DNA of 32,958 nt, taken from contig JAJQDY010000061.1 in NCBI GenBank assembly GCA_021201965.1, positions 1 to 32,958 of the forward strand, in the 5' to 3' direction. The translations under genes were made by a program, and so were the position numbers. Source of the DNA: Phascolarctobacterium sp. (GTDB taxonomy: Bacteria; Bacillota; Negativicutes; Acidaminococcales; Acidaminococcaceae). The notes under the pieces are model-generated. The model had not been told where the DNA came from. It was given only the letters and a program-made list of their open reading frames with translations, and did no database searches. Of this stretch, positions 5,387 to 9,130 are shown piece after piece; positions within the stretch are counted from its first letter, which is position 1; each line of letters opens with the position of its first letter.

Positions 5387-5677
5387 CTATTTGTCGAATA
5401 TAGCATATATGTCGCGTTCACTGAGAATCAGGCAGTCCTTCCCGTCAATTTTGACATCAGTTCCTACATATTTTGCAAACAACACCTTATCGCCAACCTT
5501 CACATCAGGTTTCACGCGGGTACCGTTTTCCAGCAGTTTGCCATTGCCAACTGCAACTACTCTGCCAGTTTGTGGTTTTTCCTTAGCTGCAGTATCAGGC
5601 AGATAAATACCGCTGGCAGTTTTATCTTCCTTGGTAACAACCTCAACTACAACATGATCTGCTAATGGTCTCAACAT
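5387..5677 (-). CDS. groES: Co-chaperonin GroES (10 kDa)
   Basis: A 96-residue heptameric lid for GroEL. It begins [13 protein letters not shown] and contains the mobile-loop region around [12 protein letters not shown] and the conserved [15 protein letters not shown] segment, at normal family length. The ATG at 5677 has AAAGGGG upstream. It is the first gene of groES-groEL. The leader (5678-5761) contains a perfect CIRCE inverted repeat, so heat-shock control by the HrcA repressor is expected; hrcA itself is not in the window. Confidence 0.98.
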
Positions 5678-5734: not shown

Positions 5735-5761
5735 TTAGCACTCTTTTGGTTCGAGTGCTAA
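5735..5761. promoter_or_regulatory. CIRCE operator (HrcA binding site)
   Basis: TTAGCACTC-N9-GAGTGCTAA is an exact match to the CIRCE consensus with the canonical 9-base spacer. It sits 11 bases downstream of the groES -10 box and about 57 bases before the groES start, where HrcA would block transcription. Confidence 0.97.
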
Positions 5762-6043: not shown

Positions 6044-6631
6044 CTATTTTGTTCTTTTTTTATCAGCAACAATAATTCTTTCCGCAAGTTCTTTCAGCGT
6101 AATGCGTTTCAACATGCTGTACTGCTGCATTTTCCTATATGCTTCCTGTTCAGTCATGCCGTGCACCGTCATCAAAATGCCTTTCGCACGATCCAAAAGC
6201 CTTCTGGTTTCCAGGCTCTCCTTCAGGTTTCCTACTTCTTTATTTAATGTCTGTATTTCCGCAAAACGACTGACTGCTATTTCCATAGCAGGAAAAAGCT
6301 GCTCTTCACGCACGGGTTTCACCAAATAGCCTATGACACCAGCATTTTTAGCCTTATCCACTATATCCTGCTGACTGTAAGCAGTTAAAAGAAGTACCGG
6401 TGCGATATTTTCCGCCGCAATAATTTCCGCAGCCGAAATGCCATCCATGCCAGGCATCTTTACGTCCATGATTATAAAATCAGGTTTCAGACTGCGGGTC
6501 ATATTAACCGCTTCCTCACCATTTACCGCCTCACCTGCTATTTCATGACCTACCTCAGTTAGCATTTCACGTAGGTCGAGTCGTAGTATCGCCTCATCAT
6601 CTGCAAGCAGAATCCTTAATTTTTTTAACAT
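6044..6631 (-). CDS. ANTAR-domain response regulator (PdtaR/EutV-like antiterminator)
   Basis: A 195-residue response regulator. The receiver domain spans about 1-120, with acidic pocket D11/D12, phospho-acceptor D56 in IIMDVKMPGMDG, switch residue T84 in LLTAYS and conserved K105. A short coiled linker (about 120-140) leads to a C-terminal ANTAR RNA-binding domain (about 135-190, with LLDRAKGILM and the EQEAYRKMQQYSM helix). ANTAR proteins bind paired hairpins in nascent RNA and prevent termination. Its ATG overlaps the last 7 bases of the kinase gene, so the two are translationally coupled. Target RNAs are not evident here. Gene names pdtaR or eutV would over-claim, since no eut genes are near. 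Confidence 0.93.
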   Translation of the reverse strand: MLKKLRILLADDEAILRLDLREMLTEVGHEIAGEAVNGEEAVNMTRSLKPDFIIMDVKMPGMDGISAAEIIAAENIAPVLLLTAYSQQDIVDKAKNAGVIGYLVKPVREEQLFPAMEIAVSRFAEIQTLNKEVGNLKESLETRRLLDRAKGILMTVHGMTEQEAYRKMQQYSMLKRITLKELAERIIVADKKRTK

Positions 6632-8010
6632 TTTTCCATACCGCCATTCGGAATTATTACTAACGCACTTACACCGCCGCTGCTATTAGCATTTAAATCA
6701 AAACTGCCCTGCAAATCGGCTTCAGCCATGATCTTAATTATTTTAAGTCCAAGACTGCTGGTCTTGTTAATATCAAAACCTGCCGGCATTCCTATACCAT
6801 CATCCGCTATCTCCAGCTTATAGTTATCACCCGCATCAATAAAACTCACGTCGAGTCTCCCACTATCACGCCCACAGAAGGCATGCTCAATGGCATTTTG
6901 CAGAAGTTCGTTTAAAATAAGTGCTATGCTTGTCGCCTTCTCGGACGGAAGGCTTGCTATATCTGCGGAGAAATTAGTTTCCAGTTTAAACTCCGGCTGT
7001 AACATACTGCTTAAAATAGCCTGATAAATTCCTTTAGCTACTTTAGCCACATCAATAAGGCCTGTATCTTGCTGCGATAGATATTCATGCACCACGGCAA
7101 TACTGTTTACCCTGCAGATGCAGTCCTTTAACACATTCTTTGCCTCACCGGTTTCTGCCCGACGTTCCTGGAGTCTGAGAAGGCTTGCAATTGTCTGGAG
7201 ATTGTTTTTTACCCTGTGGTGGATCTCTTTTATAACTACGGATTTTATTAGTAGTTCCTCATCCTTTTTACGTAACTCCGTAATATCCTGCAGTATTACA
7301 AAAGCACATCCTTTATGTGCCTTAGCCACAACCGGCAACACACGCATAGAAATCAAGCGACCGTGCATAGTATACTCTTTGCTCTCGGCAGTTCCAGTAT
7401 CCATTACCATACCTACCAGAGGCCAGTTTATTGCTATGTCATTAGTACGGCGACCTATAAGATCCTTTACATCCATTACCTCAAAAATATGCTTGGCCTC
7501 ATTATTGGCAGCAATAATAATTTTGTTCTTATCTACGACAATAAGCCCATCTTCAGGGGACATCCTGCCGTAATTCAAATTCCCGTCTACCGGCAGTTTC
7601 ATACTTCTGAGCAATTCTACAGCCTGAGCTATTATAATATCATCTGGAACTGCAGTATCAAAACTTAATGCGGCAAAGGCTTTCCCTTTCGAATCCCTAA
7701 GTGGAAAAACCTTGAAACTGTTAAATATCCCCAGTTCCCATTCGCGCAATCCCTCAACCACTACATTCTGCTGCAGAGTGCGGTTTACTAGCGGCTCTTC
7801 CATGCAGCGGATTTTCTTGCCCGTTGCATCAGGCAATCTGTTGCCTATCTGCGTCATAGGCTGTTCCTGTTTATATACGGTAAAAAATTTTTTATCACAT
7901 GCCGGCAAATAGACCGTTACCCTAGAATGGGCTATGTCAGCAGCAAGCCCCAACCATGGAGCCATGGTTTGTAAAATATTTTTCTGCTCCACTGTTAATT
8001 TACTCAGCAT
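6625..8010 (-). CDS. Soluble histidine kinase, HisKA_2 type (PdtaS/EutW-like)
   Basis: A 461-residue sensor kinase with no evident transmembrane segment. It has an N-terminal GAF-like sensor domain (about 1-140), a PAS domain (about 150-245, with GLIVVDKNKIIIAANN), and the HisKA_2 phospho-acceptor box EIHHRVKNNLQ (His264/His265). A HATPase_c domain follows, with N-box LNELLQNAIEHAF and G-box DDGIGMP. This order matches PdtaS and EutW, whose partners are ANTAR regulators, and the next gene is exactly such a partner. ATG 8010 has GGTGG 7 bases upstream. The 103-base leader holds tandem DnaA boxes, an unusual neighbour. The signal sensed cannot be inferred; soluble kinases of this group respond to cytoplasmic ligands. 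Confidence 0.92.
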   Translation of the reverse strand: MLSKLTVEQKNILQTMAPWLGLAADIAHSRVTVYLPACDKKFFTVYKQEQPMTQIGNRLPDATGKKIRCMEEPLVNRTLQQNVVVEGLREWELGIFNSFKVFPLRDSKGKAFAALSFDTAVPDDIIIAQAVELLRSMKLPVDGNLNYGRMSPEDGLIVVDKNKIIIAANNEAKHIFEVMDVKDLIGRRTNDIAINWPLVGMVMDTGTAESKEYTMHGRLISMRVLPVVAKAHKGCAFVILQDITELRKKDEELLIKSVVIKEIHHRVKNNLQTIASLLRLQERRAETGEAKNVLKDCICRVNSIAVVHEYLSQQDTGLIDVAKVAKGIYQAILSSMLQPEFKLETNFSADIASLPSEKATSIALILNELLQNAIEHAFCGRDSGRLDVSFIDAGDNYKLEIADDGIGMPAGFDINKTSSLGLKIIKIMAEADLQGSFDLNANSSGGVSALVIIPNGGMEKC

Positions 8011-8037
8011 GTTTTTACCACCGTCTTAAAAAATGCC

Positions 8038-8088
8038 TTTTCCACATGGCGGAATATTTATTCCACTTTTTTATCCACATTATCCACA
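8038..8088 (+). promoter_or_regulatory. DnaA-box cluster (two perfect tandem boxes plus one near-match)
   Basis: TTATCCACA occurs perfectly at 8071-8079 and again at 8080-8088 with no spacer. TTTTCCACA (one mismatch) is at 8038-8046 in the same orientation. They lie between the tsaD stop and the start of the kinase gene, where bound DnaA could affect kinase transcription or titrate DnaA. No origin genes (dnaA, dnaN) or A/T-rich unwinding region are visible, so I do not call this an origin. Confidence 0.7.
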
Positions 8089-8113
8089 GTTTTTATATTT
8101 TGCGGACTTATGT

Positions 8114-9130
8114 CTATCCAAGTTTAAGTGACGGACTAGCGTTCAAATCCAGTGGACTTTTTATACCTGCCTGCAACATAAAGTACCCGCGGCAGGCAAT
8201 CATAACAGCGTTATCCGTACATAAAATAGATGTAGGGCAGACTAGCCGTGCACCGCATATTTTCGCGGTTTCCGCAAGGCTCGTCTGTAGAACACTGTTA
8301 GCTGAAACGCCTCCTGCCAGAACCACTTCTTTAAGTCCTGTGTCAAATATGGCAGTTGCTGTTTTTTGTACCAAGGCATCAACAATGGCCCGCTGAAAAG
8401 ATGCGGCAACGTCAGCCAAATTTATTTCCCGGCCTGCCTGCCTTGCACTGTGAAGATAATTAATAACCGCTGATTTTAACCCGCTGAAACTGAACTCATA
8501 TGGAGAATCCAGCCTAGCTACGGGAAATTCCATGGCTTCTTCATTTCCCCTTAAAGCCAGCTTTTCTATTTCAGGGCCACCAGGGTACGGCAGCCCCATA
8601 AACCGCGCAATCTTATCGAAAGCTTCTCCTGCAGCATCATCCCGCGTCTGCCCTAAAAGTTCGAAACTGTTATAATCCATCACCTTAAGCAGGGCCGTAT
8701 GGCCGCCGCTCACGACAAGTGCAAGGAGCGGAGGTGTAAGCTTTTCATCAGTCAGAAAATTGGCAAAAACATGCCCTTCCAGGTGGGTTACCCCAAGAAG
8801 CGGTTTGTCTGCCGCAAAAGCAATCGCCTTAGCTGCCGAAAGCCCTACTAGAAGAGCCCCTACCAGACCAGGACCATAAGTTACAGCCACGGCGTCAATA
8901 TTGGAAAGATCAGTATTTGCATCCCTTAACGCTCTATCAATAACTGGCATTATATTTTCAATATGTTTTCTTGAGGCAATCTCAGGTACTACACCGCCAA
9001 ATTTCTGGTGCACGTCAACCTGTGATGAAATGACGTTACTCAGAACAGTACGACCATTTTTCACTACAGCCGCAGCTGTTTCATCACAACTGCTTTCGAT
9101 TCCCAGAATATAAACATCCCTTGTCACCAT
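8114..9130 (-). CDS. tsaD: tRNA N6-threonylcarbamoyladenosine transferase TsaD
   Basis: Catalytic subunit that transfers threonylcarbamoyl from TC-AMP to A37 of ANN-decoding tRNAs in the cytoplasm, working with TsaB and TsaE. The 338-residue ASKHA-fold protein starts with ILGIESSCDETAAAVV, has VVPEIASRKHI, the metal-ligand motif HLEGHVF, and the nucleotide loop VVSGGHTALL, with GGVSANS near the C terminus. ATG 9130 has AGGAGATAGC directly upstream. It is the last gene of tsaE-tsaB-rimI-tsaD and begins 17 bases after rimI. Length and motifs are complete. Confidence 0.97.
   Translation of the reverse strand: MVTRDVYILGIESSCDETAAAVVKNGRTVLSNVISSQVDVHQKFGGVVPEIASRKHIENIMPVIDRALRDANTDLSNIDAVAVTYGPGLVGALLVGLSAAKAIAFAADKPLLGVTHLEGHVFANFLTDEKLTPPLLALVVSGGHTALLKVMDYNSFELLGQTRDDAAGEAFDKIARFMGLPYPGGPEIEKLALRGNEEAMEFPVARLDSPYEFSFSGLKSAVINYLHSARQAGREINLADVAASFQRAIVDALVQKTATAIFDTGLKEVVLAGGVSANSVLQTSLAETAKICGARLVCPTSILCTDNAVMIACRGYFMLQAGIKSPLDLNASPSLKLG

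Follow-up and report, generated by a model that had tools for sequence, protein, structure and literature searches.

A DnaA-box cluster behind tsaD in a Phascolarctobacterium genome is one copy of a widespread tsaD-anchored site with a predicted role in restraining replication initiation

Introduction

What are DnaA boxes doing in a short gap between tsaD and a histidine kinase gene, and do they belong to the kinase, to tsaD or to the replication of the chromosome? The question is raised by a stretch of 32,958 nucleotides from Phascolarctobacterium sp. (assembly GCA_021201965.1, contig JAJQDY010000061.1), analysed here over its whole length and called the window below. A sequence-only reading of the window had proposed a DnaA titration or regulatory cluster of the kind described in Bacillus subtilis, possibly linking the state of replication to a PdtaS/R-type two-component system. 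Here we follow the boxes through the window, the close relatives and the phylum, and weigh what they might be for.

Results

The cluster and the odds of its arising by chance

A motif search placed two perfect DnaA boxes, TTATCCACA, on the + strand, one at 8080-8088, closer to tsaD, and one at 8071-8079 that abuts it in 9-bp register. Closer to the kinase gene, at 8038-8046 and again on the + strand, lies a third box, TTTTCCACA, which aligns with the sixth box of a congener (G001). The abutting perfect pair plus near-match in one orientation is just as it had been read from the letters. All three sit in the gap of 103 bp (8011-8113) that separates tsaD from the kinase gene, are antisense to both of these genes and start 25, 34 and 67 bp beyond the tsaD stop codon, that is, within the 300 bp that we allow for a cluster 3' of tsaD. 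The other mark of such a cluster, boxes antisense to tsaD, holds for 3/3 in the window, and is a feature drawn from our phylum sample (343/374 boxes) and not from the orientation in B. subtilis. With three TTWTNCACA matches in 51 bp, two of them perfect, the group is also a DnaA-box cluster as the available text of PMC7561715 defines one, namely at least three boxes with a mean distance under 100 bp.

The number of boxes is weak evidence when taken alone, because the eight TTWTNCACA of the window compare with a mean of 4.3 after shuffling, and 5 of 100 shuffles reach eight; the striking part is the clustering. A first-order Markov model of the window predicts 0.29 single TTATCCACA for the + strand and 0.07 for the - strand, close to the 0.25 of the sequence-only reading, and an abutting pair only about 3e-6 times. 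The assembly (1,375,448 bases in 92 contigs, 96% complete) has 17 perfect TTATCCACA, and the perfect abutting pair occurs in it once, at the tsaD gap only. The dnaA gene sits on a different contig (C65), which puts the cluster outside the dnaA locus, as had been supposed, and the 3.5 kb around dnaA hold two perfect boxes that are unclustered. A second small DnaA-box group of this genome was seen between two long frames on contig C28 (L405, 1236-1371), where TTATCCACA and TTATTCACA stand in opposite orientation 12 bp apart, accompanied by TTTTCCACA.

The gene that anchors the cluster (8114-9130, - strand, 338 aa) is presumably tsaD, the name already given to it in the sequence-only reading. Beyond the gap, domain matches identify a PdtaS-like histidine kinase gene (6625-8010, - strand; GAF_PdtaS, HisKA_2 and HATPase_c) and a response regulator with an ANTAR domain (6044-6631, - strand), and downstream of the latter come what we take to be groES (5387-5677, - strand) and then groEL. 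A perfect CIRCE inverted repeat, TTAGCACTC-N9-GAGTGCTAA, stands at 5735-5761, immediately upstream of groES; CIRCE is the element at which HrcA acts, and groESL is probably under its own HrcA-type control. An RNA element at the cluster was also considered and rejected, as nothing in the window matches Rfam at gathering score.

Close relatives keep the boxes where the gap has room

Among named records the nearest are two MAGs of Phascolarctobacterium, a genus that NCBI puts in the Acidaminococcaceae (Negativicutes, Bacillota), and one of the two has a kinase with 93% identity to that of the window. A search with the kinase in 61 genomes, the window's own included, found a match in 52 and gave loci in 30. 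Twenty-four of these loci come from the window's own family, and tsaD adjoins the kinase in 22/24. The sequence-only reading had named conservation in close relatives as its check, and the outcome is favourable, since 16 of these 22 loci keep two or more boxes between tsaD and the kinase, counting matches of at least 8/9 letters; the gap boxes of these 16 array-bearing loci are antisense in 69 cases and sense in none. The other six loci are boxless even at 8/9 letters, their gaps measuring 2-12 bp in five cases and 55 bp in the sixth, and none of the 16 box-bearing loci has a gap below 103 bp. The common family plan is a box pair 26-35 bp beyond the stop codon with more boxes at about 78-110 bp. 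Congener G001 has six boxes in a gap of 179 bp, against three in the window's 103 bp, and compared with that locus (L004) about 76 bp that lie between two repeated box pairs are missing from the window, which has half as many boxes. The missing segment resembles a deletion between repeats and may be one, or it may be an assembly fault. Six loci outside the family also have tsaD before the kinase, three of them with 4-6 antisense boxes and three with none. The kinase match has one in-frame TAA in five loci of the window's family (L005, L013, L014, L015 and L016), which may reflect a broken gene, a match-end effect or an assembly fault.

A conserved site behind tsaD across the phylum

For the wider survey 299 genomes were drawn evenly from the phylum as GTDB defines it, with families given as codes and with no assumption that B. 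subtilis is a member. A tsaD gene was found in 289 (10 had no tsaD match), and four of these (G265, G318, G201 and G095) were dropped because the stop codon or the 300 bp downstream of it was missing, leaving 285 usable genomes. Counts of spacing, frame calling, density, DnaA-trio, tree and next gene refer to 270 flanks (266-268 usable), the remaining 19 having been added later.

A perfect box lies 0-300 bp beyond the tsaD stop codon in 168/285 genomes, compared with 0-14 of 167-287 genomes for nine other 300-bp windows between -1500 and +1500. Perfect boxes in the 300 bp behind tsaD are antisense to the gene in 343 cases and sense in 31, and 110 of the usable genomes have at least two antisense perfect boxes there. 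At 8/9 letters at least two antisense boxes are found in 166 genomes and at least three in 146, the corresponding numbers for sense boxes being 9 and 2. Moreover, a perfect antisense box is present in one or more genomes of 68/119 sampled families. The first 300 bp hold 4.57 boxes per kb versus 0.062 per kb in the remaining flanks (about 73-fold), and the density is 0.775 per kb at 30 dnaA loci and 0.009 per kb at 30 tsaC loci. The arrangement of the letters matters as well: TGTGGATAA occurs behind tsaD in 158/266 genomes, and about 300 random permutations of its letters gave 96 genomes at best, then 24 and 17, with a median of 0, the best permutation being a one-base shift that is found inside the tandem pair.

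The site is nevertheless dispensable, given that 117/285 genomes of the phylum have no perfect box behind tsaD and 6/22 of the family loci have no boxes. When the box trait (at least two antisense boxes at 8/9 letters) is mapped on a quick tree of tsaD from 266 genomes, it changes 35 times, versus a mean of 82.5 and a lowest value of 74 over 100 shuffled label sets, so the trait is largely inherited, with repeated loss or gain. In Escherichia coli K-12, at one locus outside the phylum (L404) whose tsaD was chosen by its annotation and not by alignment with the window gene, no TTWTNCACA is present in 5.5 kb around tsaD.

The boxes go with tsaD and not with the gene that follows

The genes following tsaD in eight box genomes were identified by Pfam as a radical SAM-PDZ protein, a GNAT acetyltransferase, 5-FTHF cyclo-ligase, LGT, ABC-F, another histidine kinase, a LytR-CpsA-Psr protein and a radical SAM/Fer4_12 protein. 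With queries for four of these taken from box genomes, a homolog adjoins tsaD in 44 genomes for LGT (42 with at least two boxes), 34 for radical SAM-PDZ (27), 27 for 5-FTHF cyclo-ligase (22) and 8 for ABC-F (5); gro genes lie inside the fetched flank in 29 genomes, 13 of them with at least two boxes. The PdtaS-like kinase is downstream of tsaD in just 7/266 genomes, and the only one of the seven with perfect boxes is the window. Since the boxes occur with various next genes and the kinase is so seldom among them, the cluster goes with tsaD, which suggests that its link to the kinase is incidental, and regulation of the kinase as the primary reason for the site is rejected.

Crude frame calling puts 256/336 antisense perfect boxes in the gap ahead of the next frame, and calls the next gene co-directional in 118 and convergent in 40 of 158 box genomes. 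However, boxes fall inside the called next frame in 62/97 cases of the convergent class versus 18/239 of the co-directional class, so many of the convergent frames are probably false and convergence rests on the ABC-F cases together with the GNAT gene in G173. A convergent ABC-F gene stands behind tsaD in 7/266 genomes, of which five have at least two antisense boxes (6-7 boxes in G252, G326, G197 and G227, three in the fifth) and two have none.

Two further explanations of the anchoring were tried and rejected. Chromosome position does not appear to be the selected trait, as tsaD lies at a median of 0.37 of the arm in box-bearing genomes and boxless genomes do not differ from these in arm position (p = 0.78; 45 genomes, 43 with box data, several genome sizes being rounded and one-contig or large-contig genomes being counted as closed). 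In 43/45 of these genomes tsaD is on the leading strand, so orientation of the boxes relative to the fork is inseparable from orientation relative to tsaD. The idea that the boxes are linked to t6A genes in general fails on the tsaC loci (the best 30 of 287 genomes with a match), which have one perfect box in 108 kb. For B. subtilis we take gcp to be tsaD, ydiF to be an ABC-F gene and ywlC to be tsaC. A DnaA region upstream of ywlC is also among those given for B. subtilis in the available part of PMC4447404.

Architecture of the arrays and contrast with dnaA loci

Between successive perfect boxes 9 bp is the commonest spacing (62 cases), followed by 21 bp (10 cases). An imperfect third box, TTATYAACA, commonly stands 12 bp before the antisense perfect pair in the 59 genomes with enough flank, with per-base frequencies of 0.54-0.88 except at the Y and with a G usually following the pair, so that the phased module can be written TTATYAACA-N3-TTATCCACATTATCCACA. 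The dnaA loci look different. An abutting pair was found at 1/31 of them, and at least four DnaA-trio-like triplets follow a box in 1/342 cases at tsaD versus 8/82 at dnaA loci, or at least three in 12/342 versus 14/82, a comparison from which part of oriC is absent because 21/30 dnaA loci fall short of 3.5 kb, in most cases where the contig ends. Across the phylum sample, then, the tsaD boxes as a class very rarely have the DnaA-trio run expected beside a box of oriC, and the window cluster has no dnaA neighbourhood.

The abutting pair is not unique to tsaD, an idea that we tried and rejected. Among the matches listed there are at least 77 abutting pairs in at least 57 genomes; 32 of the 77 listed, every one antisense, are found no more than 1 kb 3' of tsaD, and 45 lie elsewhere, four of them in genomes without a tsaD match. 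Twenty of these 45 non-tsaD pairs were fetched, and in seven (L369, L370, L375, L376, L377, L379 and L383) the pair adjoins a gene that we take to be ComF-like, zinc-ribbon and phosphoribosyltransferase domains being confirmed in two of the seven. These ComF-side pairs may represent another conserved DnaA-box cluster. In L365 the pair has beside it a ribosome hibernation (S30AE) gene, of which L369 has a homolog.

Discussion

Taken together, the boxes behind tsaD are conserved in sequence, orientation and spacing, they follow tsaD through the phylum, and the window holds one copy of them. We think it probable, if by no means certain, that this widespread tsaD-anchored site holds DnaA away from oriC and in that way restrains initiation. 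DnaA would most likely bind the phased head-to-tail boxes cooperatively, and we infer that it does so at the window copy and that initiation is affected. After its own replication the site would compete with oriC, either for DnaA as a whole or for the ATP form, which would help to hold back premature initiation, as has been proposed for the non-oriC clusters of B. subtilis. The pattern suggests an old site controlling the timing of replication rather than a switch for the kinase gene. The sequence-only reading stands in one part and lacks support in the other: a titration or regulatory cluster of the B. subtilis kind is supported by a B. subtilis cluster at the same place and by conservation in relatives and phylum, but the data do not support the suggested link to the PdtaS/R-type kinase as an explanation of the site, this kinase being next to tsaD in 7/266 genomes, with perfect boxes in 1/7 and other genes following the boxes elsewhere. 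Simple titration has a point against it in B. subtilis, where about 10-fold overproduction of DnaA does not cause over-initiation according to the available part of a 2026 review (PMC13220808).

A close variant is that the site resembles datA in action, its phased boxes assembling ATP-DnaA and driving conversion to ADP-DnaA where the preferred reading has DnaA merely held. The B. subtilis gcp/ydiF region prefers ATP-DnaA (PMC4447404, in the portion available), the head-to-tail phasing of 12 and 9 bp suggests an ordered oligomer, and the regulation of the DnaA nucleotide state in B. subtilis is called unknown in the accessible text of the 2026 review (PMC13220808). The same text, however, gives B. 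subtilis no Hda, SeqA or Dam, no datA and no IHF homologue, and preferential binding of ATP-DnaA is no proof of hydrolysis, so we regard this variant as unlikely. We would also put forward, tentatively and as a doubtful proposal, that the site is datA's Gram-positive counterpart: a phased site of the form TTATYAACA-N3-TTATCCACA-TTATCCACA with further boxes, ancestral and passed on for the most part vertically, set against tsaD transcription and kept behind tsaD phylum-wide, which would load ATP-DnaA after fork passage and inactivate or hold it.

If DnaA bound in the gap were instead to repress or roadblock the kinase and ANTAR genes, it would tie the two-component system to the state of replication, and the local layout is in keeping with this: measured from the kinase start codon the boxes are 28-78 bp upstream, a scan of the 103-bp gap showed nothing like a terminator, and tsaD is beside the kinase in nearly all the family loci fetched by kinase. 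Yet boxes are also present where LGT, radical SAM-PDZ, 5-FTHF cyclo-ligase, ABC-F and other genes follow tsaD, and the kinase is rare downstream of tsaD in the phylum; six family members keep the tsaD-kinase order without boxes, and a search for sites of the sigma-70 type showed none on the - strand of the gap. Kinase control as the primary role is thus unlikely, and within the window's family the boxes may still have a local influence on the kinase. A secondary or relic origin beside tsaD would be in keeping with DnaA boxes in AT-rich DNA, the AT content of the box genomes being 60% in the 300 bp after tsaD versus 48% inside tsaD and 52% at +600 to +900, but dnaA is located elsewhere, and the contrasts with dnaA loci in DnaA-trio runs of at least four triplets (1/342 versus 8/82) and in the abutting pair (1/31) leave an origin unsupported and very improbable. 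Equally hard to credit is that the boxes are due to chance, or belong to another protein's motif or an RNA element that resembles them. Although 9-mers do recur by chance in AT-rich gaps, the pair is expected some 3e-6 times in the window, the enrichment over the flanks is about 73-fold and extends to dnaA loci and not to tsaC loci, Rfam is silent at gathering score, and a DnaA-bound region of B. subtilis lies at the same place (PMC4447404, available part).

Returning to the preferred reading of a DnaA-holding site, its anchoring to one gene in one or more genomes of 68/119 sampled families, its one main orientation and its preferred spacings point to long-term selection on a cluster of the B. 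subtilis type, and the conserved cluster 3' of tsaD offers a precisely defined element for experiments. No description of its conservation across the phylum is among the literature matches listed, whose scope leaves out key primary papers; to our knowledge, those that may mention it are Okumura 2012, Ishikawa 2007 and Breier & Grossman 2009. The phylum-wide, oriented and phased conservation thus appears to be undescribed, the kind of site being already known.

Comparison with known systems

The clusters at dnaA and oriC share the identical 9-mer, which is enriched at dnaA loci, and differ in that the tsaD clusters have few DnaA-trio runs, are without dnaA and are spaced differently. E. coli datA, in the partial account on which we draw, is similarly a non-oriC DnaA-box site that lowers active DnaA; however, it lies at another locus, and it needs IHF. 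The closest likeness is to the B. subtilis gcp-ydiF cluster, which lies directly 3' of tsaD, is outside oriC and has DnaA boxes of the same consensus. Listed as 'downstream of gcp; downstream of ydiF', it ranks with the strongest DnaA regions in vitro; it has 10 sites and a Kd of 0.15 uM for ATP-DnaA versus 0.33 uM for ADP-DnaA, and at 55 nM the ATP form recovered 16-fold more DNA (PMC4447404, in the part available). Deletion of six non-oriC clusters in B. subtilis leads to early initiation, strongly only with all six removed, in the accessible portions of PMC5295017 and PMC13220808, and one review states that no B. subtilis clusters with a significant role in initiation control have been identified. 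The window differs in having three boxes where B. subtilis has 10 sites, and in that the next gene is a co-directional kinase gene and not a convergent ydiF, a difference that we treat as non-defining because only 7/266 genomes have a convergent ABC-F gene. Five of these seven, with at least two antisense boxes each and with 6-7 in four of them, share the layout given for B. subtilis.
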